Shown in pieces: positions 3-20,492 of a stretch of DNA of 23,073 bases; the stretch's first letter is position 1; every line of letters starts with the position of its first letter. This DNA is from a virus. The translations under genes were made by a program, and so were the position numbers. The notes below the pieces were generated by a model. The model worked only from the letters and a program-made list of their open reading frames with translations, had not been told where the DNA came from and made no database searches. The stretch lies in the IMG/VR virus record IMGVR_UViG_3300031788_000111, positions 1-23,073 of that record, one strand, 5' to 3'.

Positions 3-758
3 TCTGGCGCGGTCACTATACTGAAGGCCGACGACATGGCGCGCGGCGTCGAGCCCAAGGAATGGCTCACGGGGGGCGACACGCAGGAGATCGCCCTCAT
101 GCTGGAGCGTAAGGAGAAGGCGATCAATTCGGCCTTCTTCGTGGACATCTTCAAGGCCCTCGGCCAGTTGGAGGACAAAATTACCCAATCTACCTACGGT
201 GCAATTGCCCTACTCCAAGGGGAGAAATTGGACCAATTCACCGGCACCTTTGACCAGTACCGGACCGAACTGATTAACCCGCTCGTGCGGCGTGCGATCG
301 GTATCGCGTACCGGAACGGCCTGTTGAAAGACCCGCCGCAGTCGCTCATGGTGAAGGGCAACGACCCGAAGGCCGAGCCCGAGCTGGCATCGCCCAAGAT
401 CACGATCAAGAGCCGGGTGACGCTGGCCCTGTCGCAGGCGAAGATCGTCGGCACCGAAAAGACGCTTCAGATGCTCGCGCCCTTGATGGAGCAGCGCCCG
501 GAGATCGGAGACAATTTCAACTGGAACCAGCTCTCGCGGAACGTGGGGCGCGGAAACGGCATGGCCGAGAATGACTTCCTGCCGCTTAAGACCGTGCTCG
601 AAAAGCAGGAGCAGCGCGTCAAGATGCAGAAGCAGGAGATGGCGCTAAAGGCGGCAGAGATCGCCGCCAAGAGCGCGGGCGCGATGGGCAAGGCGCCGCC
701 ACAGTTTCAACAGAAGGCCGGCGACATGCTAGACAGCGCCGCACAACCAGCAGCTTAA
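3..758 (+). CDS. Portal (head-tail connector) protein, C-terminal part
   Basis: This is the C-terminal 251 residues of a T7 gp8-type podovirus portal, the dodecameric ring at the capsid vertex through which DNA is packaged and to which the tail attaches. The frame is open to the left edge of the window. The first in-window ATG (36) is internal, because the residues before it (SGAVTILKADDM) read as continuous protein. Visible features are the GGDTQEIALMLERKE region, a helical segment with FFVDIFKALGQ, and a C-terminal helix rich in K, Q, E and A (about residues 195-230) that ends in a low-complexity Ala/Pro tail. Family portals are usually 500-600 residues, so roughly half is missing upstream. 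The scaffold, capsid and tail tubular genes downstream in T7 order support the call. Assignment rests on recognition of the family and on gene order. Confidence 0.85.
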   Translation, partial: SGAVTILKADDMARGVEPKEWLTGGDTQEIALMLERKEKAINSAFFVDIFKALGQLEDKITQSTYGAIALLQGEKLDQFTGTFDQYRTELINPLVRRAIGIAYRNGLLKDPPQSLMVKGNDPKAEPELASPKITIKSRVTLALSQAKIVGTEKTLQMLAPLMEQRPEIGDNFNWNQLSRNVGRGNGMAENDFLPLKTVLEKQEQRVKMQKQEMALKAAEIAAKSAGAMGKAPPQFQQKAGDMLDSAAQPAA

Positions 759-2210: not shown

Positions 2211-2414
2211 ATGTGGAAGCTGCTCAAGGTCACTGAGGTTAGGGACGGCAAGGCGACAGTGACCGAGCACGCGAAACCCGAACCCAAATCCAACAATGCC
2301 AGACGCACCATCAGCGCCAGCGAGTCTCGACCCAAATGCCCCGCCCCCAGCAAGCCCGACCCCAGATTCAGGAAATACGGGCCCGGGGGCAGGGCCTCCC
2401 CCTTCACCGACTAG
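2211..2414 (+). CDS. Short ORF overlapping the scaffold start
   Basis: This is a 67-codon ORF. Its ATG directly follows the stop of the upstream gene (TAAATG), which favours coupled translation. The first 28 residues (MWKLLKVTEVRDGKATVTEH and on) look like a genuine small protein. The remaining 39 residues lie in another frame over the Pro/Ala-rich beginning of the scaffold gene and are low complexity, so only the first third is independent sequence. It could be a small phage protein, a leader whose translation controls scaffold synthesis, or a chance ORF. No function is assigned. Confidence 0.4.
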   Translation: MWKLLKVTEVRDGKATVTEHAKPEPKSNNARRTISASESRPKCPAPSKPDPRFRKYGPGGRASPFTD

Positions 2415-3294
2415 CGAGTATTGGGGCAAGGGCATCCTGAAGGAGGACGGCAGCTTTGACCACACGCGCTGGGACAAGGCTCCCGACGACATCAAGGATG
2501 TCGCCAAGGACTTCAGCAAGTTCAAGAACTGGGATGAGGCCGCCAAGGCGTGGAAGGGCAAAAACGAGCTTCTAGGGCGCAAGGGCATCGCGGAGCCACT
2601 TCCGCCCAATGCGACCCCCGAACAGCGCGCAGAGCACCTAGCTTTGGTCAGGAAGGCCCTTGGGGCGCCCGACAAGCCCGAGGGCTATACCTTTGAGTGG
2701 CCGAAGGAGATCCCCGAGGCCATGCGGGATGTTAAGTCCGTAACCGAGTTTGCCAAGATCGCCCACGAGGAGGGCATCTCGCCGGCCGCCTTCCAGAAGG
2801 CCGTGAGCCTAGAGATCGCCCGCCAGAGCGAGGCCGCCAAGGCCAACGAGGCCAGCATCAAGGCCATGTGGGACGGTCAGGACAAGCTGATCCGCGAGTT
2901 TGCGGCCAAGGAGGGGATGGACTTTGGGGCGGCCAAGACCCTCGCCGAGAAGGCGGGCATGAAGTGGGGCGTGGACAAGGATTCGCCCCTCATGCAGAAC
3001 GCGACGGTTTTTGCGCTCCTAACGCGCCTCGGAAAGGCCGGGGGCGAGGCCGGGCTCATCAAGGGCGACACGACCGACGACAACCTGGCCGCCCACACGC
3101 CCGAGACGGCCCAGAAGGCCCTTGATAAGATCCGCGACGACAAGACGAACGCCGACTGGTTCGCCTACTGGAACCGCGACCCCGAGAACCCGTCCAAGGA
3201 GAAGGCGCACCCGAGGCATGACGAGGTGGTCGCCAAGGCTAAGAAGCTCTCGGCGCTTGCCAATGCCAACAGGCCAATGAGGACCGGACGATGA
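2296..3294 (+). CDS. Scaffolding (capsid assembly) protein
   Basis: This is a 332-residue candidate scaffold of T7 gp9 type, which would guide polymerisation of the major capsid protein into the procapsid and leave before maturation. The first 45 residues are Pro/Ala/Ser-rich and disordered. The rest is almost all charged helix, with the pattern seen in phage scaffolds: a WDKAPDDIKDVAK...WDEAAKAWKGKNELLG block (about residues 58-95), the recurrent scaffold motif LGAPDKPEGYTFEWP (about 123-137), and a basic Lys/Arg-rich C-terminus (RPMRTGR) of the kind that contacts the coat protein. In-frame stops upstream of 2296 make this ATG the first available start. The last base pairs overlap the next gene as ATGA. 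The capsid gene is unusually far away, behind the co-chaperonin and glycan cassette. Confidence 0.8.
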   Translation: MPDAPSAPASLDPNAPPPASPTPDSGNTGPGAGPPPSPTSEYWGKGILKEDGSFDHTRWDKAPDDIKDVAKDFSKFKNWDEAAKAWKGKNELLGRKGIAEPLPPNATPEQRAEHLALVRKALGAPDKPEGYTFEWPKEIPEAMRDVKSVTEFAKIAHEEGISPAAFQKAVSLEIARQSEAAKANEASIKAMWDGQDKLIREFAAKEGMDFGAAKTLAEKAGMKWGVDKDSPLMQNATVFALLTRLGKAGGEAGLIKGDTTDDNLAAHTPETAQKALDKIRDDKTNADWFAYWNRDPENPSKEKAHPRHDEVVAKAKKLSALANANRPMRTGR

Positions 3295-3467
3295 CAAAGC
3301 CAAAGAAAGAGACAGTGATCGGCAGCCTCACTAGGCATGTAGGGTTTATCAAGGGAGACGTTACCGACCTGCAAAAGCGCGTGCAATACTTGGAGCAGAT
3401 AATCCTGAACCTGCCTAAGCCCGAGCCAAAGAAACGCAGCTTTTGGAATCGCTGGACTTGGCTATGA
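3291..3467 (+). CDS. Small coiled-coil protein (58 aa)
   Basis: This 58-codon ORF fills the gap between the scaffold and the next gene exactly. Its ATG overlaps the scaffold stop (ATGA, 3291-3294), and its TGA (3465-3467) overlaps the next ATG (3464). The protein is basic. It has a short amphipathic heptad stretch (VTDLQKRVQYLEQIILNL, about residues 24-41), then a Lys/Pro linker and an aromatic C-terminus (SFWNRWTWL) that could touch a membrane or another protein. No family is recognised. Seamless overlaps on both sides are the main evidence that it is real. Confidence 0.65.
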   Translation: MTKPKKETVIGSLTRHVGFIKGDVTDLQKRVQYLEQIILNLPKPEPKKRSFWNRWTWL

Positions 3468-3895
3468 GCGACGAGCACCTTTGGCGCGAAATGAAGGAGC
3501 AGGAGATGGCGGACGATGCCCGCTACCGGCAGAACCTTGCGCCTCAGCAGATCGGCAAACTGAAGGAGAAGCCGATCGACTACAACGCCGCCATGAAGCG
3601 GTTCGAGCAGGACTTTAAGCCCGTGTTCGAGCGGCGCGAGCGGGCGCGCACCTCGAAGGCCTACCGCCTGTTTTTGAAGGCCACCGGCCAGTGGACCGAC
3701 ATGGACGCCGCCGAGGCGATCAACCCCACGAAGGGGCTTGTCCCTGACGGCCTGACACCCGAGCAGCTCGCCAAGGAGATCCAGCAGAACCCGGAGGCCT
3801 ACAAGCATCTGGCTAAGGCGGCACCGCGCGTCACGCCCGTCACCGCCGAGCACCGCACCATAACCCCCAAGTGGGATAAGGACGAAGGCAAATGA
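3464..3895 (+). CDS. Hypothetical helical protein
   Basis: This 143-residue, highly charged helical protein has no function I recognise. I chose ATG 3464 over an upstream in-frame TTG (3443) because it forms an ATGA overlap with the preceding 58-codon ORF and begins MSDEHLWREMKEQEMADDAR, a typical soluble N-terminus. A Lys/Arg-rich helical section (FEQDFKPVFERRERARTSKA) is followed by a Pro/Thr-containing C-terminal part. No signal or membrane segment is seen. Its TGA overlaps the start of the GroES-like gene (ATGA, 3892-3895), so the two are probably translated together. A role in head assembly is a guess from location only. Confidence 0.7.
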   Translation: MSDEHLWREMKEQEMADDARYRQNLAPQQIGKLKEKPIDYNAAMKRFEQDFKPVFERRERARTSKAYRLFLKATGQWTDMDAAEAINPTKGLVPDGLTPEQLAKEIQQNPEAYKHLAKAAPRVTPVTAEHRTITPKWDKDEGK

Positions 3896-4170
3896 ACCAC
3901 CCCCAAGCCCTAGGACAGTACATCTTCTGCATCAAGGACGCACCCAAGGAGTGCATGGAGGGCGGCATCCTGATCCCCGAGTCTTTGGAGCGCACACCCC
4001 GTTTCGGTCCATCAGTCCTTGCGACGGTGGTAAGCGTGGGGGCGCGTTGCACCGTGCTCAAGGCGGGGGACCGGATTTGCCTTAAAGACATCGCAGGAGA
4101 CGACCTGATCTACAATGATAACACCTACACAAGACTCAGAGAACGCGACATCATCGGAACCGTCAGTTGA
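3892..4170 (+). CDS. GroES-like co-chaperonin (Cpn10), roof-deleted type
   Basis: This is a 92-residue Cpn10-family protein, expected to form a heptameric lid on host GroEL and help fold phage proteins, as T4 gp31 does for the T4 capsid protein. Visible family elements are the mobile loop with the GroEL-binding tripeptide (EGGILIPES, residues 23-31; ILI corresponds to IVL of E. coli GroES), VVSVG (46-50), KAGDRI (57-62), and the C-terminal DDLIYNDNTYTRLRERDIIG section (70-89) matching the GroES end. From VG to GD there are 12 residues here against 21 in E. coli GroES, so the roof beta-hairpin is largely absent. T4 gp31 also lacks it, which enlarges the folding cage. The gene overlaps the preceding stop by ATGA and the following glycosyltransferase by 56 bases. 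The fold call is strong; the capsid as client is inferred from context. Confidence 0.85.
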   Translation: MNHPQALGQYIFCIKDAPKECMEGGILIPESLERTPRFGPSVLATVVSVGARCTVLKAGDRICLKDIAGDDLIYNDNTYTRLRERDIIGTVS

Positions 4171-4879
4171 GACCAAGACCAAGATCGGCGTGTTGGTCGC
4201 AACACCGATGCGGTCGTTCTCGGGCTTCCACCCGCAGCACGAGGCGTTCCTAGCCGAGCTTGCCCGCCTATCCGAGGACCCCGACTGCCCGTATGAGTTC
4301 TGGCAGGCCGTGGTCGAGGGGGGCCGCACATGGGGGCGCTGCCGCATGGTGTCGAACATGAGGAAGCTGCGCCTGCAGTACCCCAACCTGAAGTGGCTGT
4401 ACTGGCACGACGACGACGTTGAGCAGACGGCAGAGGGCCTCTTGAAGCTCCTCTCCTACAAGCTGCCCGTCGTGGGCGCCATGTACGCCACCAAGGAGAA
4501 GGACTGCCACTGGTGCGCCAACTTCCTGCACGAGGTGAAGCTCCAGCCAAACGGCCTACTGCAGGTCTACGAGCTGGCGGTCGGGGCGCTGCTCACCCAC
4601 TACGAGGTGTACGAGAAGATTGAGGAGCGGTTCGCCGCGATCCTCTACACGGACAGGAACACGGGCGAGCGGCACCAGGGCTTCTTTCAGGAGGTCGTCA
4701 TCGAGCGCGTCCCGTATTCGGAGGACTACTTCTTCTGCTACCTGATGCGCAACACAGGCATTGGCATCTTCGCCGACACGAACATGAAGCTGCGCCACCG
4801 CGGGGCGGACGGCACGCTCTGGCCCGAGGAGTGGCCGCCTATACCGATCGACGAGGTGCACGAGGTTGCAACCGACTAG
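4115..4879 (+). CDS. Glycosyltransferase, GT-A fold
   Basis: This 254-residue cytoplasmic protein has the look of a nucleotide-diphospho-sugar transferase. The chain starts with a disordered 20-residue leader, then a first strand (KIGVLVATPMRS, 23-33). The metal-binding DXD motif is HDDDVE (98-103), after the strand LKWLYW. A conserved-looking VGALLTHYEVYEKI (156-169) resembles the acceptor-side helix of such enzymes. SEDYFF (202-207) supplies a candidate acidic catalytic pair, and His228 in KLRHRG is a candidate third metal ligand. The only ATG upstream of the core is 4115, inside the co-chaperonin gene, so the leader is overprinted on that gene in another frame. It is the first gene of the glycan cassette and ends 1 base before the next start. 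Sugar and acceptor are unknown. Confidence 0.75.
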   Translation: MITPTQDSENATSSEPSVETKTKIGVLVATPMRSFSGFHPQHEAFLAELARLSEDPDCPYEFWQAVVEGGRTWGRCRMVSNMRKLRLQYPNLKWLYWHDDDVEQTAEGLLKLLSYKLPVVGAMYATKEKDCHWCANFLHEVKLQPNGLLQVYELAVGALLTHYEVYEKIEERFAAILYTDRNTGERHQGFFQEVVIERVPYSEDYFFCYLMRNTGIGIFADTNMKLRHRGADGTLWPEEWPPIPIDEVHEVATD

Positions 4880-4880
4880 C

Positions 4881-5549
4881 ATGAAGCTGACGGCAATAAC
4901 CTGCACGACGCCTGCGCGAGCCGAGGCCCTTGAACTCTGCAAGGGATACGTCGCCCGCCAGACGCGCCAGCCGGACCAGTGGCTCATCCTTGACGGACCG
5001 GAGCTCATGCAAAACAAGCTGGCCGACGCGATCAGCGGCGGGAAGGTCGAGGGCGACTACATCGTGTTCGCCGAGGATGACGATTGGTTTAGCCCTCATT
5101 GGTTCAAGTGGTGCGAGGATCGTCTGGCGCGAGGATTCGACATGGTTGGGCAGGGTAACGCGCTGTACTATAACGTCGCTCACAGGTGGTGGTCCCACTG
5201 CGGCAACGTGCGCCATGCGTCCCTTTGCCAGACGGCGATCAGGAAGCGCCTCTTGGAGCACACGTATCGCATCATTGAGGACTTTGGATGCCCGTGGATC
5301 GACGTGCAGCTCTGGAACATCGAGTGCAACAAGTACCTGCATCTGCCGACGGAGAAGGAAATGCTGCTGATTGGCATCAAGGGCCTGTGCAGCGGCTACA
5401 GCCGCGAGCACCGGCAGGTGGCGGGCGACCTGAACAAATTGGACTACGACCAGTCCAAGCTGCGCGAGTTGATCGGGGACGATGCCGCGCACTATGCCAA
5501 GTTCTTCCACGGCGAGGAGGAGCTGCTACGGCTGGCCGGTGCTTTATGA
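4881..5549 (+). CDS. Glycosyltransferase family 2-like
   Basis: This is a 222-residue short GT-A glycosyltransferase. The N-terminus MKLTAITCTTPARAEALELC with RQTRQPDQWLILDG (27-39) follows the usual GT2 opening (first strand, helix, 'Q....W.ilD'). The DXD metal/nucleotide motif is AEDDDWF (64-70). WIDVQLW (139-145) may hold the catalytic acid, and SREH (174-177) a late metal-ligand His. I chose ATG 4881 rather than an in-frame TTG at 4866, because residues after 4881 form the canonical first strand and the upstream extension lies within the previous gene. It overlaps the following dehydrogenase-like gene by ATGA (5546-5549). No transmembrane anchor is present, so it should act in the cytoplasm. 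Substrate unknown. Confidence 0.75.
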   Translation: MKLTAITCTTPARAEALELCKGYVARQTRQPDQWLILDGPELMQNKLADAISGGKVEGDYIVFAEDDDWFSPHWFKWCEDRLARGFDMVGQGNALYYNVAHRWWSHCGNVRHASLCQTAIRKRLLEHTYRIIEDFGCPWIDVQLWNIECNKYLHLPTEKEMLLIGIKGLCSGYSREHRQVAGDLNKLDYDQSKLRELIGDDAAHYAKFFHGEEELLRLAGAL

Positions 5550-6274
5550 ACCTATGCGTTATAGGGCAGGGGGTGCTTGCCGCGACGACCAAGGAGGCGT
5601 GCGCGAAGGTGGGGCATACGCTGCAACCGATAGCTCACAAGGGGCTAGAGGTGCTCTGGGTGTGCTACGATACGCCGGTCACGGACAAGGGTGACGCCGA
5701 CTACGAGTGGGTCATCAACCGGATGCAGGAGGAGTTCCAGAACCTTGAGGTTGACCCGGTGATCCTGATCTCCTCCCAGCTTCCGGTCCTGACGACGTTT
5801 CGGATGCGCGAGCGGTTCCCGCTTCGCTTCTTTGCGTGCAGCCCCGAGAACATCCGGGTCGCCTCTGCACTTCCCGACTTCATGCACCAGTCGCGCATCG
5901 TGGTCGGCAGGCCAAATTCCAGTCGGGATTCGATCCTAACCGCTTTGCTTTCCCCGTTCTCGAACGACCTCATGTTCACGAACTGCGAAACCGCCGAGAT
6001 GGTAAAGCACGCGCTCAACTGCTGGCTTGGCATGAACATCGCCTTCATCAACGAGATAGCTCGGGTATGCGACTACGTTAAGGCCGACGCCGAGACGGTC
6101 GCCGATGCGCTCTTAAAGGAGCGGCGCGTGGGGCCATCTGCCCCCCTGCGTCCGGGCAAACCCTTTGGCGGCGGGCACCTCATGCGCGACATCAAGCACC
6201 TGGAGTCCATCAGCCGTGGCCGGGGCATGGCGCTTCCGATCATAACCCACATCCGCGAATCCAATGAAAGTTGA
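5546..6274 (+). CDS. Minimal UDP-glucose/GDP-mannose dehydrogenase-like protein lacking catalytic Cys
   Basis: This 242-residue protein resembles the first two domains of nucleotide-sugar 6-dehydrogenases, which are normally 400-450 residues. A reduced Rossmann half begins MNLCVIGQGVLAA (the third Gly of GxGxxG is replaced) and keeps a DTPVTDKGDAD segment (42-52, the 'TP' loop). Then come SPENIR (99-104), QSRIVVGR (115-122) and ETAEMVKHALN (148-158), with the general Lys154 and Asn158 of the family. The long helix GMNIAFINEIARVC (162-175) precedes the active-site loop FGGGHLMRD (207-215). There the nucleophilic Cys of 'FGGSCFPKD' is His211, while the Asp (215) is kept. The C-terminal UDP-binding domain is absent. 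It may do a single oxidation, another reaction, or bind substrate only. The start at 5546 overlaps the previous stop by ATGA; a longer upstream frame is the shadow of the previous gene. Confidence 0.7.
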   Translation: MNLCVIGQGVLAATTKEACAKVGHTLQPIAHKGLEVLWVCYDTPVTDKGDADYEWVINRMQEEFQNLEVDPVILISSQLPVLTTFRMRERFPLRFFACSPENIRVASALPDFMHQSRIVVGRPNSSRDSILTALLSPFSNDLMFTNCETAEMVKHALNCWLGMNIAFINEIARVCDYVKADAETVADALLKERRVGPSAPLRPGKPFGGGHLMRDIKHLESISRGRGMALPIITHIRESNES

Positions 6275-7007
6275 TGTCCACGTTCTGCGCTACGCCGACG
6301 ACTGGCTGGTCCCGTACGTCATCCGGCACTACCTGACGTTTGCGGAAAAGGTCGTCATCCACGACGCGGGCGGCGGCGCTCCCATTCCGCTCCAACCGGG
6401 AGTCGAGGTCATCCCATGGGACTGCCCCGAGGTGAACGACCTGCGCTACGCCGAACTGCGCAACAACTGCTGGAAGGGCACGAAGGCTGATTGGGTCGTC
6501 GTGTGCGATCTGGACGAGCTGCTCTGGTTCCCTGACGGCGCAGAGGCCACTCTGGGCGCCTACGAGAAGATGGGTGCCGCCGTGCCAAAGCCCCACGGGA
6601 TCGAGATGTTCAGCGAGACGTACCCGGCCGGCGACGGCCAAATCTTCGACCAGATCAAGATGGGTGCGCCGGACAACAAGTGGTACTCAAAGGCCATCCT
6701 GTTCAACCCGCGCCTCGTGTCCGATATGCGCTATGGACTTGGAAGCCATGAGTGCGACCCGTATCTCCACGATGGAAGGTCATTCCATGTGGGTCCTCGC
6801 TGGCCCCACGCGAAGCCCCCCTGCTACCTGCTCCACTGCCACCACATCGGGCCAGCCGAGGAAATCGGAGCCAAGTACGACGCGACGATAACGCGCATGT
6901 GCAAGGAGAACAAGGCGAACCACTGGGGCAACTTGGCTCCGGGTCACATTCATGTTAAGGAAAAGCGCGCCAACATCGTTCCCAACCTCCGTCAAATCAT
7001 ACCGTAA
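6264..7007 (+). CDS. Glycosyltransferase (GT2-type, Glyco_tranf_2_4-like)
   Basis: This 247-residue protein matches the pattern of the 'Glyco_tranf_2_4' group (related to GT92). It opens with MKVDVHVLRYADDWLVPYVI (order: first strand, an 'E/D-W-Y' helix facing the acceptor), then KVVIHDAGG, a D/N-rich turn, and the metal motif VCDLDELLWF (80-89) with Asp82, Asp84 and Glu85. A late His-rich motif LLHCHHIGPAEE (about 209-220) is also characteristic. The remaining C-terminal part is basic. The gene overlaps the previous one by 11 bases and the next by one (TAATG). It is probably cytoplasmic. Donor and acceptor sugars are unknown; as the third GT-A enzyme of the cassette it presumably adds another residue of the glycan. 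Confidence 0.75.
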   Translation: MKVDVHVLRYADDWLVPYVIRHYLTFAEKVVIHDAGGGAPIPLQPGVEVIPWDCPEVNDLRYAELRNNCWKGTKADWVVVCDLDELLWFPDGAEATLGAYEKMGAAVPKPHGIEMFSETYPAGDGQIFDQIKMGAPDNKWYSKAILFNPRLVSDMRYGLGSHECDPYLHDGRSFHVGPRWPHAKPPCYLLHCHHIGPAEEIGAKYDATITRMCKENKANHWGNLAPGHIHVKEKRANIVPNLRQIIP

Positions 7008-7507
7008 TGGGCTCCGTGCGCTTTGGCATCCCGAGGGAGTTGACGCTCGCCCTAAAGGCGAAGTGGCGGATAGAGGATTTCGTGGAGACAGGAACCCTTG
7101 TCGGCCACACAGCTGCGTGGGCAGCGGATCACTTCGCTCGGGTCGTAACTGTGGATAATGAAATGGATTCGTATCACAAGATAGCCGGACCCCTCGTAAA
7201 GGATCATCCCAACATTCAGGCATATTGCGATCACTCCCCTTGGTTCCTTGCTGGACTGAGACTCAACTATCAACCAGTGCTCTTTTGGCTGGACGCCCAT
7301 ACCAACGAGGAATGTCCCGTGCTTGCGGAAATATCCGTAATCAACAAGTCGGGCCAACCCCACGTGATCCTCGTTGACGACGCCCGCCTCTTCGATGCAC
7401 TGACGGCGTGGCCCCGCAAGGCCGATGTCATCGCAGCCTTGGAGAACGGCGGCAAACGCACGGTCTGGGAAGTCGAGGACGTTCTTGTAGCCGAGCCATG
7501 CCTCTAG
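7007..7507 (+). CDS. Class I SAM-dependent methyltransferase-like protein
   Basis: This 166-residue protein has a Rossmann-like core. FVETGTLVGHTAAWAA (25-40) fits a SAM-binding motif I of the form E.G...G.T. VVTVDN (46-51) would be the acidic strand binding the ribose, HSPW marks the next strand region, and VLFWLDAH (91-98) and HVILVDDARLF (119-129) are later strands with paired acidic residues. Proteins with ETGT...WLDAH...DDAR occur in surface-polysaccharide and phage glycan clusters, usually annotated as methyltransferase-like. Its short length leaves little room for a substrate domain. It overlaps the preceding stop by one base (TAATG) and the next gene by 10 bases. Function as sugar O-methyltransferase is inferred from context. 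Confidence 0.6.
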   Translation: MGSVRFGIPRELTLALKAKWRIEDFVETGTLVGHTAAWAADHFARVVTVDNEMDSYHKIAGPLVKDHPNIQAYCDHSPWFLAGLRLNYQPVLFWLDAHTNEECPVLAEISVINKSGQPHVILVDDARLFDALTAWPRKADVIAALENGGKRTVWEVEDVLVAEPCL

Positions 7508-8313
7508 TCCAGGCGATCATCGGCGGCGGTCTTGGCAACAAGCTCTTTGGCTACTGCTTCGCTAGGGCCTACGCCGAGAAGCATGGATGCGACCTGCACG
7601 TGCAAGGGGGCCTCTACCCGCAGAAGTGGAACATCGTTTTCCAAGGCACCGACCACCCTGCCGTATCCAGAGAACTGCCTATTCGACAGTCGTTCGACTT
7701 CGAGAAGTGGGAGGGGCAGACGGACATACGCATCGAGGGCTTTTGCCAGCACCAGAAGAACCTGATTTACACGCGCCGGCAGATCCGCGAATGGCTGCGC
7801 TTCACCCCCGAGGTCGAGGAAATGGTCGCGGGCATCGAGTCCGTCCAGATCCTTTGCAATCAGCGCCTTGGCGACTACTGCCTGCCGTGCAACCCGTTTG
7901 CGTGGGTGAGCCGCGAGAGCTACATCGAGTGCGCCAACCGCTTCGGGCTTGGCGCATCGAACATCACATGGCAGGACGGCGACACGCACTACCCTTGGCC
8001 GGGGATAGACGCCTCCCTTTTCAAGCGCCACGAGCACCACGCCGAGTTCGATGAGCGCATGGACTTCCTGCCTGACTTTGTGGTTATGATGCGCGCCAAG
8101 AACCTGATCCGCGCCAACTCGACCTTTGGCTGGTGGGCTCACGAACTGGGCAGCAACGAGCGGGTGTTCTGCCCCGACGTGACAAAAGTTGATGCCAACC
8201 AGGGGGTCGTCGGCCTGAAGCGCGTCCCGCAGTTTGTGCCCTTTGTTGAGGGCAACCATATGCCCGTCGTGCCCGGCATCCCGTACCTGTCCGAGCTTCA
8301 CCTTGCTCCATGA
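7498..8313 (+). CDS. GT11 (alpha-1,2-fucosyltransferase)-like glycosyltransferase
   Basis: This 271-residue protein shows the landmarks of family GT11. The N-terminal IIGGGLGNKLFGYCFARAYA (7-26) corresponds to the 'GGLGNQLFQYAFA' loop. NQRLGDY (121-127) stands where GT11 enzymes have the 'HxRRGDY' GDP-fucose-binding motif. FVVMMRAKNLIRANSTFGWW (194-213) corresponds to the 'NSTFSWW' C-terminal motif. I chose ATG 7498 because MPLVQAI leads directly into the glycine loop; a longer in-frame extension upstream falls in the preceding gene. It overlaps both neighbours (10 bases and ATGA). The Arg of the first motif set is retained, so activity is plausible, but donor specificity (fucose or another sugar) is not decidable from sequence alone. 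Confidence 0.75.
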   Translation: MPLVQAIIGGGLGNKLFGYCFARAYAEKHGCDLHVQGGLYPQKWNIVFQGTDHPAVSRELPIRQSFDFEKWEGQTDIRIEGFCQHQKNLIYTRRQIREWLRFTPEVEEMVAGIESVQILCNQRLGDYCLPCNPFAWVSRESYIECANRFGLGASNITWQDGDTHYPWPGIDASLFKRHEHHAEFDERMDFLPDFVVMMRAKNLIRANSTFGWWAHELGSNERVFCPDVTKVDANQGVVGLKRVPQFVPFVEGNHMPVVPGIPYLSELHLAP

Positions 8314-8906
8314 CGATCGACGTAATCGTAGCCCGCTACAAGGAGGACCTGATGTGGACAAAGACGGTCCAGCCCGGCAAGCGCATCTTGGTCTACAACA
8401 AGTGCGGGATAATGTGTAACTCGCTGCCCAACGTGGGGCGCGAGGCCCACACGTACCTGCATCACATCCTGCACGAATACCGGACACTGCCCGACTGGAC
8501 GTTCTTCACGCAGGGCGACCCGAACGCGCACTTGCCGAGGACGCGCATCCAGACGGTGCTTAACGGGTTTCCCGACAACCGGCTTAGGAGCGTCCTCATG
8601 CTGGAGGGTGGCCCCATCTTTTTCGTGGATGAGCCGGTTCGCCCGCTGGAGGCCGACCCGCAGAACGGGGACGCGCAAAACGACGTGCGCGGCCTGTGGG
8701 ACGAGCTGTTTAAGAGCCCGTTCCCCGAGGACATCCTGTTTGCTCCTGCCGCAATCTTCGCCATTCACAAGAGCAACTTATACACGCGGAGCATGGCCTT
8801 CTACCATCACGCCATGAACGCGGCGGCAAGGCGCCCCCGCGGCCCTTGGGAGTTCGAGCGCATCTGGGCCTACCTGTGGCGCGCCAAGGACACCCCACGC
8901 CTTTAA
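8310..8906 (+). CDS. DUF3431 family protein
   Basis: This 198-residue protein matches the DUF3431 pattern. It begins VIVARYKEDLMW (5-16), then RILVYNKCG (25-33), LPNVGREAHTYLHHI (39-53), and LPDWTFFTQGDPNAH (60-74), followed by a C-terminal half with APAAIFAIHKSNL (145-157) and MAFYHHAMN (162-170). DUF3431 proteins are found in polysaccharide and glycan loci of fungi, bacteria and viruses. They are suspected to be glycosyltransferase-like, but the activity is not established. The ATG overlaps the stop of the GT11-like gene (ATGA), and one base separates its stop from the next ATG. Family membership is clear; the reaction is not. Confidence 0.75.
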   Translation: MTIDVIVARYKEDLMWTKTVQPGKRILVYNKCGIMCNSLPNVGREAHTYLHHILHEYRTLPDWTFFTQGDPNAHLPRTRIQTVLNGFPDNRLRSVLMLEGGPIFFVDEPVRPLEADPQNGDAQNDVRGLWDELFKSPFPEDILFAPAAIFAIHKSNLYTRSMAFYHHAMNAAARRPRGPWEFERIWAYLWRAKDTPRL

Positions 8907-8907
8907 C

Positions 8908-9537
8908 ATGGACATCCTTTCCCGCTACAAGGTCCTGATCGAGAACACGGACTGCCCTGTCGTCATGGAAATCGGTGCCGCCGAGGGCGAGGACACGACG
9001 CGCTATCTTGACTGCCTGATCGCGCTCGGTCGCCCGTTCCGCTACATCGCCTTTGAGCCTGACGAGCGCAACGTCTGGCACCTGACTCGCCTCTTGGAGA
9101 AAAAGCCCTTTGAGCTGGTCCCGCACGCGCTGGGGGATAAGAGCGGCCTAGTGCCGTGGCGCTCATCGAACCACCCGTACAGCGGCAGCGTGAAGGAGCC
9201 CAAGGCCCACCACGAACTCTGGCCGCACATCAGCTTTTCTGAGCCCACCATGATCTACATGGAGGAATTGGACAACGTGGCGGCACGGATGCAGATAGCC
9301 AAGGTGGATTGGATCTGGTGCGACGTTCAGGGGGCCGAGGACTTGGTGATCGCGGGCGGGCTTAAGACGTTCGCCAGGACGCGCTTCTTCTACACCGAGT
9401 ACATCGAGGTGGAGGCCTACGTCGGCCAGATTGGCCGCGACGAGATCCACCGCCGCCTGCCGGGCCGCTGGCGCATCGCCGAGGACTACCGTTCATGGGA
9501 CAAGGGCGGGGATTGTTTGTTTGAACGCTTGACATAG
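8908..9537 (+). CDS. FkbM-family methyltransferase
   Basis: This is a 209-residue SAM-dependent O-methyltransferase of the FkbM (Methyltransf_21) family. Motif I is VVMEIGAAEGEDTTRY (18-33). The acidic ribose-binding residue sits in IAFEPDERN (47-55). HALGDKSG (73-80) is the usual 'A.g...G' segment. WIWCDVQGAEDLVIAGG (135-151) is the FkbM signature 'lKiDvEGaE..vl.G', with Gln in place of Glu at residue 141. FkbM enzymes commonly methylate sugar hydroxyls in glycans and natural products. It is the last gene of the cassette, after DUF3431. A non-coding leader and then the capsid gene follow, so this is the right border of the insertion. Methylation of the terminal sugar is inferred. Confidence 0.85.
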   Translation: MDILSRYKVLIENTDCPVVMEIGAAEGEDTTRYLDCLIALGRPFRYIAFEPDERNVWHLTRLLEKKPFELVPHALGDKSGLVPWRSSNHPYSGSVKEPKAHHELWPHISFSEPTMIYMEELDNVAARMQIAKVDWIWCDVQGAEDLVIAGGLKTFARTRFFYTEYIEVEAYVGQIGRDEIHRRLPGRWRIAEDYRSWDKGGDCLFERLT

Positions 9538-9701
9538 GCCACTCGTTGGCAATAGCAGTAGCGGCAGAGGAATGTGATGGACACTCGCGCCTAGCGCGAC
9601 CCGGTGACTCCTCGGACTAACAAGCCGAGAACCAGACCGGACTTCCCGATACTCTGGCGGTAGGCCGATCAGGCAGTTAACCGCAGTATTTTCCTCTTAC
9701 A
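9538..9701 (+). promoter_or_regulatory. Structured non-coding leader upstream of the capsid gene
   Basis: This 164-base gap is by far the largest non-coding interval in a window where genes overlap. It holds a run of short hairpins: GCCA/TGGC (9538-9541 with 9547-9550), a perfect TCGCGC-CTA-GCGCGA hairpin (9585-9599), CTCGG/CCGAG (9611-9615 with 9625-9629), CCAGA/TCTGG with an inner CGG/CCG (9632-9657), and GCGGT/ACCGC (9657-9661 with 9680-9684) followed by a T-rich stretch (about 9687-9697). GAGGA (9567-9571) can also pair with TCCTC (9609-9613) in an alternative fold. No ORF or convincing sigma-70 promoter is seen. It may be an mRNA leader, a processing site, a weak terminator or a phage promoter region. 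Confidence 0.45.
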
Positions 9702-10610
9702 ATGGCAACAGGTGTACTCACAGTACAACCGCACTACGAGCCCGACTTCGACCGCGTGTGGCATGAAATCATGGCCCAGCAGATCGACCACCGGCTCGCG
9801 GGGTACTACATCAGCGACACAGTCGTTGGTAACTCGAAGCGGTACAGCCAGATGGGGTCACAGTCCTACGCGATGAGCCAAAAGACGGCTCGCGCCGCAT
9901 GGACGGAACCCTCTGACGTACCGACCGCAATCCGCTGGGTTCTCCCCACCGGATACCAGAAAGCAACTTGGATCGACGAGGATGACGCCGCCCTTCTGGG
10001 CTCGCTCCCCGATCCGCAGAATCAGGTGGCGATGAACCACGCGATTGCCGTCAATCGCCTGAAGGACCAGCTCATCATCAACAACCTGATTGGCATCAAC
10101 TACACGGGCGCCTCGGCGCAGACCGCGACGGCGCTTCCGGCGCTCCAGCAGGTCGGCGTGCAGTTCCCGGCCACGACCAACACGGGCATGACGCTCGCCA
10201 AGATCCTTGAGTCGCTGTTCGTGCTCGACTCGAACGATGTCCCCGAGATGGACCGCGTCATGGTCTACGCCGCAAAGCAGCTCTACGATCTGCTCTTGAA
10301 CGTGGATCAGGTTGACTCCGTCCTCTACAACGATGTCCGCGCGCTGATGAAGGGTCGCTTCGACGAGTTCGCCGGTTTCCGGTGGATTCGCACCCAGCTC
10401 CTCCCGACCGTCGGCACGCCGTCCATCCGCTCGTGCATCGCCTACCAGAAGAAATTCGCGCTCTTGGGCGAACTGAAGGGCATGAGCACGAAGATCGACA
10501 TCCTGCCCCAGCAGTCCCACGCGATTCAGGTGCGCACGACCTACACGGCCAATGCCACCCGCATGGAAGAGGCTGGAGTGGTCGTGATCGCCTGCGACGA
10601 GACCCAGTAA
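9702..10610 (+). CDS. Major capsid protein
   Basis: This 302-residue protein is the likely major head protein (HK97 fold), corresponding in position to T7 gp10. The N-terminus carries the pattern PHYEPDFDRVWHEIMAQQ (about 9-26), then SDTVVGNSKRYSQMGS, followed by ATWIDEDDAALLGSLPDPQN (about 87-106). These are features of the podovirus/siphovirus capsid family often listed as Phage_capsid_2. The central segment (YTGASAQTATALP) and the long E-helix region fit an HK97 A-domain/P-domain layout. The C-terminus is beta-rich (HAIQVRTTYTANATRMEEAG). It is preceded by the structured leader and has no clear Shine-Dalgarno sequence. No slippery site for a T7-like 10A/10B frameshift is visible at the 3' end. 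Assignment is by family resemblance plus its place before the tail tubular genes. Confidence 0.85.
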   Translation: MATGVLTVQPHYEPDFDRVWHEIMAQQIDHRLAGYYISDTVVGNSKRYSQMGSQSYAMSQKTARAAWTEPSDVPTAIRWVLPTGYQKATWIDEDDAALLGSLPDPQNQVAMNHAIAVNRLKDQLIINNLIGINYTGASAQTATALPALQQVGVQFPATTNTGMTLAKILESLFVLDSNDVPEMDRVMVYAAKQLYDLLLNVDQVDSVLYNDVRALMKGRFDEFAGFRWIRTQLLPTVGTPSIRSCIAYQKKFALLGELKGMSTKIDILPQQSHAIQVRTTYTANATRMEEAGVVVIACDETQ

Positions 10611-11349: not shown

Positions 11350-12249
11350 ATGCAGCAATTATCACAGGTAGAAATCTGCAATCTGAGCCTGATGCAAATC
11401 GGCCAGAACAAGATCCAGTCGATCACGAACCAGAACGACCCGAACGCCGTTGCGTGCAACGTGGCGTGGAGTCAGGCGTTCGGAAGCGTGGCGCGCGAGA
11501 CGCCTTGGAACTGCCTGAAGGCGATTGCGTCACTGGGGCAGGCCATCATCCCGAATCCGGCCTCTGCCACCTACGGGACCAACATCCCGAGCACGGCGAC
11601 TACATGGACGCCGGGGACGAACTACGCCGTCAATGCGTACGTGATCTATGCGGGCTACCTGTACCAGTGCCTGATCGCCAACACGGCGAGCGCCTCGTTC
11701 ACGGTGGACTTGACGAAGGGCTACTGGTTCCAGACGAACACCTACTCGCCGAGCTTCTTCGGGGTGCCCGCGGGCAACACCGTGAGCGGGGCCCCATGGA
11801 GCTACGCCTACACGCTGCCGGCCGATTTCATCGCGTTGGTGAGCCTTAACGGCGGCGGGTGCTGGAGCGGATGGGGATGGTGGGCGGGATGGGGCGGCAC
11901 GAGCGGTTGGCAGGGCGGGAACTCCTCGCAGGGCCAGCCCCATGAAATCTACGGACGCTACCTCTACACGAACGCCGCCTTGGCGAACATCGTGTACGTG
12001 CAGTACCAGACCGACACCACGATCTACGACTCGCTCTTTACCGACTGCCTCGTCCTGAAGCTGTCGGCCATGATCGCCACGCATTTGCGGAAGGACGACA
12101 TGGGGATCTCGCAGACCTTGGCCATGGCCTACCGCCAGCGGATACAGGACGCCCGGGTGAAGAACGCGGGCGACGACAGGCTGAAGCGGTTTAACCCGAT
12201 CTCCTCGTCCCGCTTCGTTCAGGCTCGCAGGCGTTCCACAAATGGGTAG
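11350..12249 (+). CDS. Tail tubular protein A (T7 gp11-like) with inserted binding module
   Basis: This 299-residue protein is the adaptor that connects the portal to the tail nozzle in podoviruses. The N-terminal helices (VEICNLSLMQIGQNKIQSIT, 7-26) and the paired C-terminal helices (SLFTDCLVLKLSAMIATHL...QTLAMAYRQRIQDA) follow the gp11 pattern; T7 gp11 is about 196 residues. The extra length has two parts. Residues 86-127 (W..GTNYAVNAYVIYAGYLYQC...YWF) resemble a CBM5/12-type carbohydrate-binding module. Residues 168-190 form a very Gly/Trp-rich loop (CWSGWGWWAGWG). No ribosome-binding site exists: the terminator T-run ends 4 bases before ATG. Its stop overlaps the next gene by 8 bases. Call supported by gene order. 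Confidence 0.8.
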   Translation: MQQLSQVEICNLSLMQIGQNKIQSITNQNDPNAVACNVAWSQAFGSVARETPWNCLKAIASLGQAIIPNPASATYGTNIPSTATTWTPGTNYAVNAYVIYAGYLYQCLIANTASASFTVDLTKGYWFQTNTYSPSFFGVPAGNTVSGAPWSYAYTLPADFIALVSLNGGGCWSGWGWWAGWGGTSGWQGGNSSQGQPHEIYGRYLYTNAALANIVYVQYQTDTTIYDSLFTDCLVLKLSAMIATHLRKDDMGISQTLAMAYRQRIQDARVKNAGDDRLKRFNPISSSRFVQARRRSTNG

Positions 12250-15978: not shown

Positions 15979-17508
15979 ATGGCGAACATTCCCACAATCC
16001 CTGGAAGCGCCCGCGTCCAAGACCAGCAGATTGGCGCGAAGCGCGATGTGACGCCCCAGCTTCGGGCGCTCGGCCAGTTGCGGCAAACCGTTGGCGCGGC
16101 CAACAACGCCGTGCAGGAGGGCATGTCGGCCATCGTGGACTACGAGGAGAAGAAGCGGAAGGCCGAGGAGGCCTACGTGTTCAACTCTTCGTCGCTGTCA
16201 TTCCAGAAGATGCACTCGGACTTCCTTCACAACGTGAAGAAAACGCCTGACGAGCAGATTGTCCCAAACTGGACCGAGCAGACGCAGACATGGAAGCAGC
16301 AGCAGCTTGACCAGTACGGGAGCAAGCTGTCGCCTCGGGCGACCAAGATTTTCAACATGAACCTGGACAATGCCATCGGGCAGTCCACGGCCAAGTTTCA
16401 GGTCGTCGCCGACAAGCTGGGGAGCCAGCGGCGCGAGGGGGCGGCGGTCGCCAACTGGAATGAGTTCCTGAAATCGGGCGACCCGGAGATGGCGACGAAG
16501 GCGATGAGTTCCATAAAGCTGGCGCAGGCGGCTGGGGACATCACCCCCGAGAAGGTCGCGTACTACCAGTCACAGGTGCAGCCGGTCCTCCAGAAGAACC
16601 AGATTTTGAACGGGATAGACCATGACCCGTACGCCACGCTTAAGGACATCGACGCGGGCAAATTCAAGAGCGTGCCCGAGACCGAGCTTTCGACGCTGCG
16701 CAACACCGCCGAGAAGCAGGTGAACTACCTCCAGCGGACGACGGCGGGCGAGGCCGTGAACGACTACCAGACCAGCGGCCTGCCCAAGAGCGACAAGGAA
16801 TTGGCAGACCTGAAGGCCAGCGGCAAGGTGACGGGCGAGTTTGTGAAGAACTACAAGGCCATGGTGGCGCGTACCGACTACCACACGGCGCAGGACGAGC
16901 AGGCGCTTATGCTCAATAGGCTCCGCGACATGGACCTAAGCGACTCGGACAACCCCGAAAAGGACGTGCGGCAGGTTACGGACGAGGCGGCCAGCCTGCC
17001 CCCGCAACTCCAGAAGGAGATCCACACGTTGGCGGATACGAAGCTCAAGGCTGCGAAAACAGGGCAGCGCAACGAGATGCACGCCGAGCAGCTTGACCTG
17101 ATGCGGCAGGCCCACGAGGAGTCCATGGGGCGCATCCTGATTTCCCCGCGTACGGACACCGAGCCCGCCCGCAGCGCCGAGAGCGTGGAAAGCATTGAGC
17201 GCATGGACGACGACAAGTTCGCCGCCGAGTTTGGCGAGAACGCTGACCGGAAGGACGTGCTCAAGACGGCCAAGGATTTCGAGGCCTCTGAGAAGCTGCG
17301 CTATGCCAATGCCCAAAAGGCGTTTGTGAACTGGACCAAGACCAAGAAGGGCGCAGAGGCCACGCCCGAGCAGGCGGCCGCGGAGAGGGAGCGCCTCGGG
17401 TTTGGGCGGTACTCGACGACCGATGATGTCGCCGCCGCCTACAAGGCAGGCAAGGTGGACCGTGGAACGGCCAAGGAGATCCTTCTTAGGCAGTTCGGCG
17501 TACCCTGA
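15979..17508 (+). CDS. Internal virion protein (T7 gp15-like)
   Basis: This 509-residue, almost entirely helical protein has many charged heptads and no membrane segment. It begins MANIPTIPGSARVQDQQIGA. Helical repeats follow (VVADKLGSQRREGAAVANWN and YQSQVQPVLQKNQILNGIDH), and the last 100 residues end with a DVAAAYKAGKVDRGTAKEIL section. T7 gp15 is about 747 residues and forms the periplasmic tube of the ejection machine with gp16. This homologue would be shorter. The 5-base AAGGGGG-like stretch before ATG is one of the better possible ribosome-binding sites. The TGATG junction with the next gene couples them. The identity as gp15-type comes from order, length and composition; no defined domain was recognised. 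Confidence 0.7.
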   Translation: MANIPTIPGSARVQDQQIGAKRDVTPQLRALGQLRQTVGAANNAVQEGMSAIVDYEEKKRKAEEAYVFNSSSLSFQKMHSDFLHNVKKTPDEQIVPNWTEQTQTWKQQQLDQYGSKLSPRATKIFNMNLDNAIGQSTAKFQVVADKLGSQRREGAAVANWNEFLKSGDPEMATKAMSSIKLAQAAGDITPEKVAYYQSQVQPVLQKNQILNGIDHDPYATLKDIDAGKFKSVPETELSTLRNTAEKQVNYLQRTTAGEAVNDYQTSGLPKSDKELADLKASGKVTGEFVKNYKAMVARTDYHTAQDEQALMLNRLRDMDLSDSDNPEKDVRQVTDEAASLPPQLQKEIHTLADTKLKAAKTGQRNEMHAEQLDLMRQAHEESMGRILISPRTDTEPARSAESVESIERMDDDKFAAEFGENADRKDVLKTAKDFEASEKLRYANAQKAFVNWTKTKKGAEATPEQAAAERERLGFGRYSTTDDVAAAYKAGKVDRGTAKEILLRQFGVP

Positions 17509-20492
17509 TGTTCAACGCCGACGAACTACTGGACGGCAAGCCAGGGGCCACGCCTGGAGCGGGCGCGCCGGCTGCCCCTCCCATGCCTGCCGACGCCCTT
17601 CTGGACGGCGGCGATAAAGGCCAGGGTGCCACCACTGACTCGATTAGGGCGGCAACCCCCTACGAGGAGGCTGCTGACCATTTCGACCGCCTGACCTACC
17701 ATCTGTTTTCGAGTGGACCCAAGGCCCGTCCGCAGCCTGAGGGTATAAAGATGGGGTGGGGGGATGTGCCCAATGCCGTTGCAGGCAAGGTTACAGAAAT
17801 GGCCCTCAATCCCGGCAACCTCCTGCTGGGTGCCTTCACGGGTGGCGCAGGTCCCCTAATCAAGGGTATCGTTGGCAAAGCGTATGGAGCGTATGCGGTT
17901 GCGCAGACCGCTAAACAAGTTCCCCAGCTTTACCGCGAAGTCGCAGACCCGAATGTCTCTGGGGCTCAAAAGACTGTGGATGTGACCAGTGCGACGGCAC
18001 AGGCGGGACTGGGGTATCTTGGGCTGCGTACCAAAATGTTCCCCAAGGTGGCGGCGGCGGCTCACGCCATGGGCCAAGTCCAGACGCTCGTTCCTGAGGC
18101 CGCCAAGGCCGCTGAGGCGGTTACCCCTGCCGAGGCCCCCCGCGTGCTGTCGGAAGCCTCGCTAGAGGCCGAGAAACCGCAGGAAAAGGCCGTCCTGATG
18201 CAGGCTGCTGAGGCCATCCATGAGGTAGCCCCGACAGAGCCCGTTCCAGAGGCCCCAGCTCCCGAGGTGAAGCCCGTTCCCCCAGAGGACGTTAAGACGG
18301 AGACCGCCCCCGAACCCAAGAAGGACGAGGGGAAACTCATTGGCATCAAGAACGTAGCCCGGGAGGAGGCCGCAACGGAACTCGGCGACGAGGCCCCCAA
18401 GCACGGTGAGGAAACGACCGATGAGGCCGAGCAGGCTAAGGCGCAGGCCAAGCTGGAGGCGGACCCCCTCGCCGGCCGAAAGCTGATCGAGCGCCTTGCC
18501 CAGATCCTCGCCACGGGCAAGCCCACCAACGTCTCGACAGGCGATGTGTTCCTCGCCTCGCATGAAATGGTGACGGCCACCAACGAGCGCGCCGCCGCCG
18601 AGTCCGCGTATCAGGACGCCCTCGCAAGCGGCGACAAGGAGGGCGCGCAGGATGCCGAGCAGCGAATCGCCCGCGCAAGGGACTACTACACAAAGGTTTC
18701 CAATGTCGTGACGCAGTTCGGAACCGAGCAGGCGCAGGCTTTCCGCGCGCGGGCCGTAATGTTCCGCGACGACTATTCGATTGCCTCAATGGAGCGGCAA
18801 CTGGCCGCAGCCACGAAGGACGGCAAACTGACGCCCGAGCATGAGTCCTTTGTACGGCGCATCCAGAAGTCTTTCGTCAAGACGCAGGAGCAGCTTGCCG
18901 CCCATGAGGCCAAGCGCCTCGCCGCCGCCAAGCGCCGCGCCGAGATAGCTGCCGAGGAGATTGGAGCCAAGCTTCAGCGCGGCGACCTTTCCCCCAACCC
19001 CAAGCCGGAGCCCGTCCAGCAGGATGCCGAGCTTGAACGCTTGCAGGCGGCGCACGCCCGCGTAAAGCAAGAGTTCCAAGAGGCCGTGATACGCGAGCGC
19101 CTGGAGAACCGCACGCCCTTCGAGAAGTTGCAGGATTTGGCGGTCAAGTGGCGGCGCGGTTTCGTGCTGTCGGGACCGGTCACGCTGGCCAAGCTGACGG
19201 CGGCAAGCGCCTTCCGCATGGTGTCCACCCCGTTGGAGGATGCCGTTGGGGCTCTGTACGGCAAACTGCCTGTCGTCCGCGAGATAGCCAAGGGCTCCCC
19301 GGTCGAGAGCGGATTCAATACCCGGGCACTCGCCAAGGCTTACAGCGAGGCATGGAGCAAGGGCCTGCGCGATGCCGCGCAAACGCTAAAGACCGGCCAG
19401 AGCGACTTGGATGTCCTGTTCGGAAAGGGCAAGGATGACGCCGTTGGCGAGGGTAGCGTCGTTGACAGGTCCATCATCGACTACGTCGGCAACATTCACG
19501 GCGCGCTCAAGGCCCCGCTCAAGCGGTTCAGCTATACGCTGGCGATGGAGAAGCAGTTTGACCACGCCATCAGGACGGAGGCTGACGCTGGAAATCCTGC
19601 CGTGCAGACCGCCATGTCTAATCGCGCCTACCGCAAGGCGCAGGCAAACCTGTTCCTTCAGGATAACGTCTTTAACGATGCCATCAGCGCGGCGTTGGGG
19701 ACCGTAGAGCATAGCAAGACCGCGCCGGGAATCGGCAAGGCTGTCGGTACTGCCGCCCGCATTGCCATGCCGATCCGCAAGGTGCCGACCAACATGGTGG
19801 GCGAGGGAATCGAATACTCGACCGGGCTTGCGACAGGATCGTGGAAGATCGCCAAGGCCGCGCGTGCCGGGTTCGAGACGCTTACCGCCGACCAGAAAGA
19901 TGTCATCATGCGCAACTTGAAGAAGGGCACGCTGGGCGCGGGCGGTCTCGCCATGCTGCTTGGGTACTTCACCGCCAAGGATTCCCCCATCAAGTTCGGC
20001 GGCTTCTATCAGGCGGGCGAGAAACGCAAGAAGGGCGACGTGGCGGCCGGCAGCATGTCCATCTACGGGGTTGAGCTGCCCTCATTCCTTCTCGACCACC
20101 CCATCTTTCAGACTTTCCAAGTAGGGGCGACCACCTACCGCGTTGCCAATTCCAAGATCAGGAAGGGCGATCGGGATGCGCAGGGCTGGCTGTCGGGGGC
20201 AGGCGCCGCCGCCATGGGCCTCGTTGACGAGACGCCGTTCGGGCGCACCGACGTTGAGCTTGGCAAGGTGATCGGCGGCGACCCCTCGGAGCGGCAGTAC
20301 CAGTGGGGCGAGTTCGTCAAGGGGCTTGTCGTCCCGCAGGGCGTGCAAACCGCCGCCCAGATGACCGACAAGGACCGCAAGGGCGAGCCTGTGAAGCGCA
20401 AGGCCGACACCGTCATGGAGCACGTCGAGAGCGGAATCCCTGGCCTTCGCCAAACGCTGCCCAAAAGGAAGATCGACCACAGTGAACGCTGA
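17508..20492 (+). CDS. Large internal virion protein (T7 gp16-like position)
   Basis: This 994-residue protein is the last of the internal virion set, expected to be ejected and to span the inner membrane. The N-terminus has two copies of a short motif (FNADELLDG, residues 2-10, and PADALLDGG, about 26-34). A hydrophobic/glycine section (NLLLGAFTGGAGPLIKGIVG, about 104-123) may contact membrane. It is followed by a Pro/Glu/Ala-rich linker (about 200-300), then coiled-coil (about 360-530). The C-terminal domain begins around 550 (KWRRGFVLSGPVTLAKLTAA) and has IRKVPTNMVGEGI (about 757-769), recalling the C-terminal part of LPD38-like phage proteins. A GGLAMLLGYF segment lies near 810. No lytic transglycosylase motif such as T7 gp16's was found. 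Identification is mainly positional. Confidence 0.65.
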   Translation: MFNADELLDGKPGATPGAGAPAAPPMPADALLDGGDKGQGATTDSIRAATPYEEAADHFDRLTYHLFSSGPKARPQPEGIKMGWGDVPNAVAGKVTEMALNPGNLLLGAFTGGAGPLIKGIVGKAYGAYAVAQTAKQVPQLYREVADPNVSGAQKTVDVTSATAQAGLGYLGLRTKMFPKVAAAAHAMGQVQTLVPEAAKAAEAVTPAEAPRVLSEASLEAEKPQEKAVLMQAAEAIHEVAPTEPVPEAPAPEVKPVPPEDVKTETAPEPKKDEGKLIGIKNVAREEAATELGDEAPKHGEETTDEAEQAKAQAKLEADPLAGRKLIERLAQILATGKPTNVSTGDVFLASHEMVTATNERAAAESAYQDALASGDKEGAQDAEQRIARARDYYTKVSNVVTQFGTEQAQAFRARAVMFRDDYSIASMERQLAAATKDGKLTPEHESFVRRIQKSFVKTQEQLAAHEAKRLAAAKRRAEIAAEEIGAKLQRGDLSPNPKPEPVQQDAELERLQAAHARVKQEFQEAVIRERLENRTPFEKLQDLAVKWRRGFVLSGPVTLAKLTAASAFRMVSTPLEDAVGALYGKLPVVREIAKGSPVESGFNTRALAKAYSEAWSKGLRDAAQTLKTGQSDLDVLFGKGKDDAVGEGSVVDRSIIDYVGNIHGALKAPLKRFSYTLAMEKQFDHAIRTEADAGNPAVQTAMSNRAYRKAQANLFLQDNVFNDAISAALGTVEHSKTAPGIGKAVGTAARIAMPIRKVPTNMVGEGIEYSTGLATGSWKIAKAARAGFETLTADQKDVIMRNLKKGTLGAGGLAMLLGYFTAKDSPIKFGGFYQAGEKRKKGDVAAGSMSIYGVELPSFLLDHPIFQTFQVGATTYRVANSKIRKGDRDAQGWLSGAGAAAMGLVDETPFGRTDVELGKVIGGDPSERQYQWGEFVKGLVVPQGVQTAAQMTDKDRKGEPVKRKADTVMEHVESGIPGLRQTLPKRKIDHSER
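20465..20471 (+). promoter_or_regulatory. Possible Shine-Dalgarno for the GTG-started small ORF
   Basis: AAGGAAG lies 10 bases before GTG 20482 inside the end of the preceding gene. It is one of few SD-like sites here and is the main argument for translation of the small ORF. Confidence 0.4.

Follow-up and report, generated by a model that had tools for sequence, protein, structure and literature searches.

The window considered here is the whole stretch of 23,073 nt of the IMG/VR virus record IMGVR_UViG_3300031788_000111, in which an ORF specifying 92 aa on the plus strand was proposed, from the sequence alone, to encode a phage GroES-like co-chaperonin that lacks most of the roof hairpin, as does gp31 of phage T4. 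The locus thus raises the questions whether this ORF specifies a genuine roofless co-chaperonin, whether it represents a separate example of the gp31 design and which protein it might serve as a folding lid.

Identity of the encoded protein

The features assigned to the ORF are as follows:

3892..4170 (+): roofless GroES/Cpn10 co-chaperonin of 92 aa, according to PF00166, phrog_3188, the AlphaFold (AF2) model and the Foldseek matches to Cpn10
3961..3978 (+): GGILIP (residues 24-29), which forms the mobile-loop core and is presumed to bind GroEL, aligned to GGIVL of E. coli GroES
3997..4011 (+): five extra residues, PRFGP (about residues 36-40, the exact placement being alignment-dependent), recognised by 19 versus 14 residues from the motif to VG
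4042..4065 (+): eight-residue link ARCTVLKA (residues 51-58) in place of the 17-residue roof hairpin, located by HMMER, a multi-phage alignment and the model

The ATG start codon overlaps the stop codon of the preceding gene (ATGA), and the sequence GAAGG is located a few bases 5' of it. A comparison with the Cpn10 family, which the original prediction had suggested as a check, yielded a match to PF00166 with an E-value of 9.8e-10 and 38.8 bits, well above the curated cut-off of 21.1 bits, and the same family was matched by all nine clade members. The PHROG match of the protein was phrog_3188, annotated as 'co-chaperonin GroES' (E 1.3e-8), and PHROG 3188 was likewise matched by 9/9 clade members with a best E-value of 6.3e-13. 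The NCBIfam GroES models matched the protein below their own cut-offs, and the nearest sequences in the PDB were an algal Cpn20 co-chaperonin and mitochondrial Hsp10. An AlphaFold monomer model computed from nine natural sequences (pLDDT 86.6) displayed the Cpn10 beta-barrel, and a Foldseek search with this model found human Hsp10 with an E-value of 3.5e-6, the top fold matches in the PDB being Hsp10 and the Cpn10 proteins of M. tuberculosis and T. thermophilus; T4 gp31 (1g31) was also found (E 9e-4). The proposed affiliation with GroES is thus borne out by the agreement of PF00166, phrog_3188 and the fold match to Hsp10. Moreover, synonymous changes exceeded non-synonymous changes in the GroES genes, with dN/dS values of 0.14-0.41 for the closer pairs, and the protein is therefore maintained. 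Judged by sequence and model, the ORF specifies a genuine roofless phage co-chaperonin, a member of Cpn10 with a loop extension of its own.

The roof span and the mobile loop

The distance between the VG and GD motifs is eight residues in the window protein and 17 in E. coli GroES. The shorter span proposed originally is thus real, but the values of 12 and 21 residues given for it had included the motifs themselves. The HMMER alignment to human Hsp10 placed a nine-residue gap exactly between VG and GD. A first MAFFT alignment with E. coli GroES alone had located the deletion elsewhere and was discarded, as the roof is the site indicated by both HMMER and the multi-phage alignment. In the model of the window protein no strand is present between residues 49 and 61, whereas the E. 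coli GroES control, modelled with the same pipeline from nine sequences (pLDDT 76.9), contained the short strands 47-48 and 54-55 that form the roof hairpin. The structure prediction, likewise named as a check and run on the monomer, accordingly contains no normal roof, and most of the hairpin is absent as proposed.

The span of eight residues was present in all clade sequences, down to 39% identity, whereas a span of 17 was counted in 80/80 GroES proteins of gammaproteobacterial genomes, enteric ones included, and in all of the 30 cellular GroES proteins most like the phage profile (the best 30 in a set of 398 genomes from the same phylum). Since the span is eight throughout the clade and 17 in each of these 110 cellular proteins, the loss of the roof is not due to chance. 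Among 80 viral GroES proteins, retrieved with a cellular GroES as a query that favours roofed forms, the span was 16-17 residues in 74 cases, 12 in five and 25 in one.

The mobile loop had been described as intact. This applies to its core, GGILIP, the hydrophobic pattern I-L/V/I-I/V of which is kept, at the level of sequence, in all clade members, with variants such as GGIVIP, GSILVP and DGIIVP in the relatives, but the loop is five residues longer behind the motif: the stretch from GGILIP to VG comprises 19 residues in every clade member and 14 in E. coli GroES. Within this region, T35, R37 and P40 are invariant across the clade. The window protein therefore shares the Cpn10 core and the hydrophobic GroEL-binding motif with E. 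coli GroES and human Hsp10, which differ from it by the presence of the roof (a 17-residue span) and by a loop that is shorter by five residues.

These features also bear on the idea that the protein has lost its role as a folding lid and now blocks or diverts the host GroEL as an inhibitor, or serves as a part of the virion with a Cpn10 fold. Cpn10-like folds do occur in other proteins, and Foldseek and Pfam indeed returned weak matches to dehydrogenase domains; Cpn10 nevertheless ranked first, ahead of them by orders of magnitude, and purifying selection has preserved both the GroEL-binding loop and the Cpn10 core. A loss of the lid function is consequently regarded as very improbable.

Gene neighbourhood and candidate clients

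The gene neighbourhood of the co-chaperonin comprises the following features:

36..758 (+): C-terminal part of a T7-type portal protein (head-tail connector), PF12236 with E 1.8e-20
2296..3294 (+): scaffold-like protein of 332 aa, assigned by position and phrog_3742; the same slot in pelagiphages is annotated as 'capsid assembly protein'
3443..3895 (+): small protein directly 5' of GroES, with a possible start at 3467 and a stop codon overlapping the GroES start; it precedes GroES in all clade members
4208..9537 (+): cassette of glycosyltransferase, UDP-sugar dehydrogenase and FkbM methyltransferase genes, separate from the co-chaperonin, with 4115 as a possible start of its first ORF
9571..9661 (+): structured RNA, conserved and recognised by covariation, in the capsid gene leader; its distance from the capsid start codon is some 40 to 130 bases
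9702..10610 (+): major capsid protein of 302 aa and 33.5 kDa, PF19821 with E 3.4e-49

Upstream of GroES are thus located the genes for the portal (67 kDa), small proteins, the scaffold-like protein and a further small protein. The latter, encoded at 3443-3895, has no significant family match and varies in its C-terminal length within the clade; it is perhaps a partner in head assembly. A fusion link between this small protein and GroES by way of phrog_13932 (E 0.21 in one member only) was dropped. Downstream of the capsid gene, a protein encoded between the capsid and a large tail protein (11350-12249) carries a predicted CBM_5_12 domain at residues 85-116 (E 4.4e-7), and two large ORFs at 17508-20492 (994 aa) and 20594-21880 (428 aa) had no Pfam match at E 0.01.

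A search of the annotated phage collection revealed no close relatives by DNA or protein, and a search of bacterial genomes with the capsid protein provided no prophage or host link. In a 42 kb contig, which comes from a virus almost identical to this one (99.99% across the 14 kb that were compared), genes for a terminase, a DnaC-like helicase loader and an Erf-like annealing protein are also present. Further relatives, with capsid proteins 75-92% identical, were obtained by searches with the capsid and tail proteins. A Cpn10 gene was detected in 17 of the 18 related contigs searched, the remaining one being a fragment with 4.1 kb of sequence 5' of the capsid gene, too little to reach the expected place of GroES. 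In all contigs of sufficient length, the order is portal, scaffold-like protein, small protein, GroES, a cassette of 0-5.6 kb and capsid; GroES lies between the scaffold-like and capsid genes in each of the 17 contigs that carry Cpn10, and in those without a cassette it is separated from the capsid gene by 178-184 bases. Since this gene order is constant in the relatives, GroES belongs to the head block and the cassette represents a variable stretch behind it. The podovirus-type block of head genes that had been proposed around GroES was thereby recovered, with a fixed order from portal to capsid.

The cassette enzymes had been named as possible clients. In the window, GroES is situated directly 5' of the cassette. 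The cassette occupies about 5.5 kb between GroES and the capsid leader, includes a DUF3431 ORF, and might modify sugars of the virion or the host surface. Its length in the relatives is 0, 2.8, 4.5 or 5.6 kb, with partly common genes, and it is absent from the contigs L018-L021 and L023-L029, all of which nonetheless retain GroES with the same span and loop. Accordingly, the cassette enzymes are not the reason for the retention of the gene, and a lid serving the sugar-modifying enzymes is the least probable of the readings considered and largely refuted. Within the cassette, the ORF at 5288-6274 resembles UDP-glucose/GDP-mannose dehydrogenases and looks shortened, as its matches are confined to the central domain and the last part of the NAD-binding domain; no counterpart of it was detected in the cassette of contig L003.

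In the stretch that separates the cassette from the capsid gene, an RNAalifold analysis of eight sequences revealed a structure of 19 base pairs, eight of which showed compensatory changes. Paired cells amounted to 94.7% versus 81.8% in shuffled alignments as a pair-count control, and the covariation score was 0.408 versus 0.148 in the shuffles, a value reached by 0/500 of them; sliding the partners by 1-3 columns reduced the pairing to 21-43%. A covariance model detected one copy of this RNA in each of nine relatives tested, source sequences included; in the phages with distantly related capsid proteins no copy was found. The corresponding capsid leaders are located at 6122-6305 of L018 and 3694-3871 of L024. 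Rfam contained no family matching the RNA up to an E-value of 1, and none was found in the whole window at gathering scores. Irrespective of the presence of the cassette, all clade members examined carry the RNA directly 5' of the capsid start codon, and since it is situated between the cassette and the capsid gene, its position with respect to that gene is constant. It is a candidate element for the control of capsid expression.

On the whole, the co-chaperonin probably (we estimate about 70%) caps the host GroEL late in infection and replaces GroES in the folding of phage morphogenesis proteins, among which the major capsid protein is the most likely client. The phage protein would form a heptamer that binds to the host GroEL through the mobile loop late in infection and would take over the role of GroES for proteins of phage morphogenesis. 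The main client would be the major capsid protein, which is encoded immediately downstream of GroES in the cassette-free contigs; the argument from the fixed place of GroES in the head block is circumstantial. If T4 gp31 is taken as a guide, the dome without a roof and the longer loop together should provide an open-topped, slightly taller cage. A requirement for a larger chamber on account of the size of the capsid protein was not supported, since the capsid protein has a mass of 33.5 kDa versus 56 kDa for T4 gp23, which makes chamber size an unlikely argument. The benefit would probably consist in client specificity or in the opening of the dome rather than in room for an oversized client, and the 67 kDa portal might profit from an open, taller cage.

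More distant capsid homologues, with about 24-33% identity, are present in HTVC010P, HTVC203P, Vibrio D105 and two Manatee Spring podoviruses, in which the order of portal, scaffold and capsid is the same. No Cpn10 match was detected in the records of these five phages, and pelagiphage Baldr yielded only a match below the cut-off, inside a large ORF. The capsid fold therefore needs no phage-encoded lid in general.

Comparison with T4 gp31 and other roofless co-chaperonins

The gp31 protein of phage T4 lacks the roof loops, has a mobile loop of 22 versus 16 residues and forms a chamber that is 8% larger (PMC6318259). Folding of gp23 needs GroEL together with gp31, for which GroES cannot substitute, and the favoured reason is chamber size; homologues of similar size nevertheless prefer their own gp23, so that subtler features may count (PMC3012670). 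The resemblance in design that had been proposed was confirmed as far as the absence of the roof in both proteins is concerned (PMC6318259). At the level of sequence, the window protein parallels gp31 twice, by the absent roof and by the longer mobile loop, and the likeness to gp31 and to CocO of phage RB49 extends to phage encoding, the Cpn10 fold and a link to head formation. The differences are equally apparent. The fold alignment with 1g31 gave a TM score of 0.69 at 14% identity; the link replacing the roof comprises ten residues in gp31 (111 aa) and eight in the window protein (92 aa); the extra loop residues are mostly located before the GroEL-binding motif in gp31 and after it in the window protein; and the window gene lies inside the head gene block, unlike that of gp31, whose client gp23 (56 kDa) is also larger than the client candidate of 33.5 kDa considered here.

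Membership in the gp31 family could not be demonstrated by profile comparison, as hhalign gave a probability of 0.8% and no significant profile-profile match. The PHROG of gp31, phrog_931, was matched weakly by three of the nine clade members (best E 0.0046) and by the window protein with an E-value of 0.19. The claim of a separate example thus stands insofar as membership in that family could not be demonstrated, but the protein is one of several, because roofless phage GroES proteins recur. Eight to ten residues replace the roof in the GroES of Bacteroides phage SJC03, Acinetobacter phage AciJM313, archaeal virus vir526, jumbo phage CBB, Microcystis phage Mvi-JY20 and the faecal contig MT835830. 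In these six proteins the loop is mostly of normal length (AciJM313 has three additional residues), and the five-residue extension was not seen in the roofless PHROG 3188 members SJC03, vir526, CBB and Mvi-JY20. The chloroplast proteins Cpn10(1) and Cpn10(2) of Arabidopsis are also devoid of the roof loop, yet they are organellar, and Cpn10(1) works only together with Cpn20 (PMC4242682). As gp31 and the plant proteins show, the roof is not strictly a defining feature of Cpn10, and with six other phage GroES proteins and the plant Cpn10s its loss is not rare. There is little hope of a resolved tree from such diverged sequences of 90 residues. Chaperonins of the virioplankton have been surveyed by Marine et al. 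2017 (cited in PMC7185714).

The recurrence of such proteins is relevant to another explanation, according to which the phage protein supplements or replaces the host GroES during infection for numerous proteins of phage and host, among which the capsid protein holds no special place, and the roof loss is a mere shortening of little effect. T4 gp31 and RB49 CocO can indeed replace GroES for all essential folding in E. coli (PMC3012670), and roofless GroES genes of unrelated phages, for example AciJM313 and CBB, are located away from annotated capsid genes; no annotated capsid gene was found in the few kb around any of the six. This explanation is nevertheless difficult to reconcile with the place in the head block, which is fixed in every clade member, and with the added five-residue loop, which offsets much of the saving by the roof, contrary to simple streamlining. 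A general supplement of GroES is therefore considered unlikely, although far less so than a lost lid function.

The co-chaperonin is thus preferably viewed as a lid for morphogenesis proteins, and for the capsid protein in particular. A further step, namely that the roof loss and the loop extension evolved separately from those of gp31 and yielded a lid dedicated to a capsid protein that an ordinary GroES would easily accommodate, is put forward tentatively and is doubtful, if slightly less so than the general supplement. If it is true, the roof would matter beyond chamber volume, for instance through an open top for chain ends or through lid affinity, and phages would remove the roof repeatedly for that reason. 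The gp31 protein is the textbook lid for one large client, and its roof loss and longer loop have been explained by chamber size; the same two changes occur here with a likely client of 33.5 kDa and with a lid gene fixed in the block of the capsid gene. Roofless lids accordingly recur among phage GroES proteins and are not a peculiarity of T4, and the combination of a roofless lid, a small capsid protein and distant capsid relatives without a lid offers a compact comparison for the function of the GroES roof.
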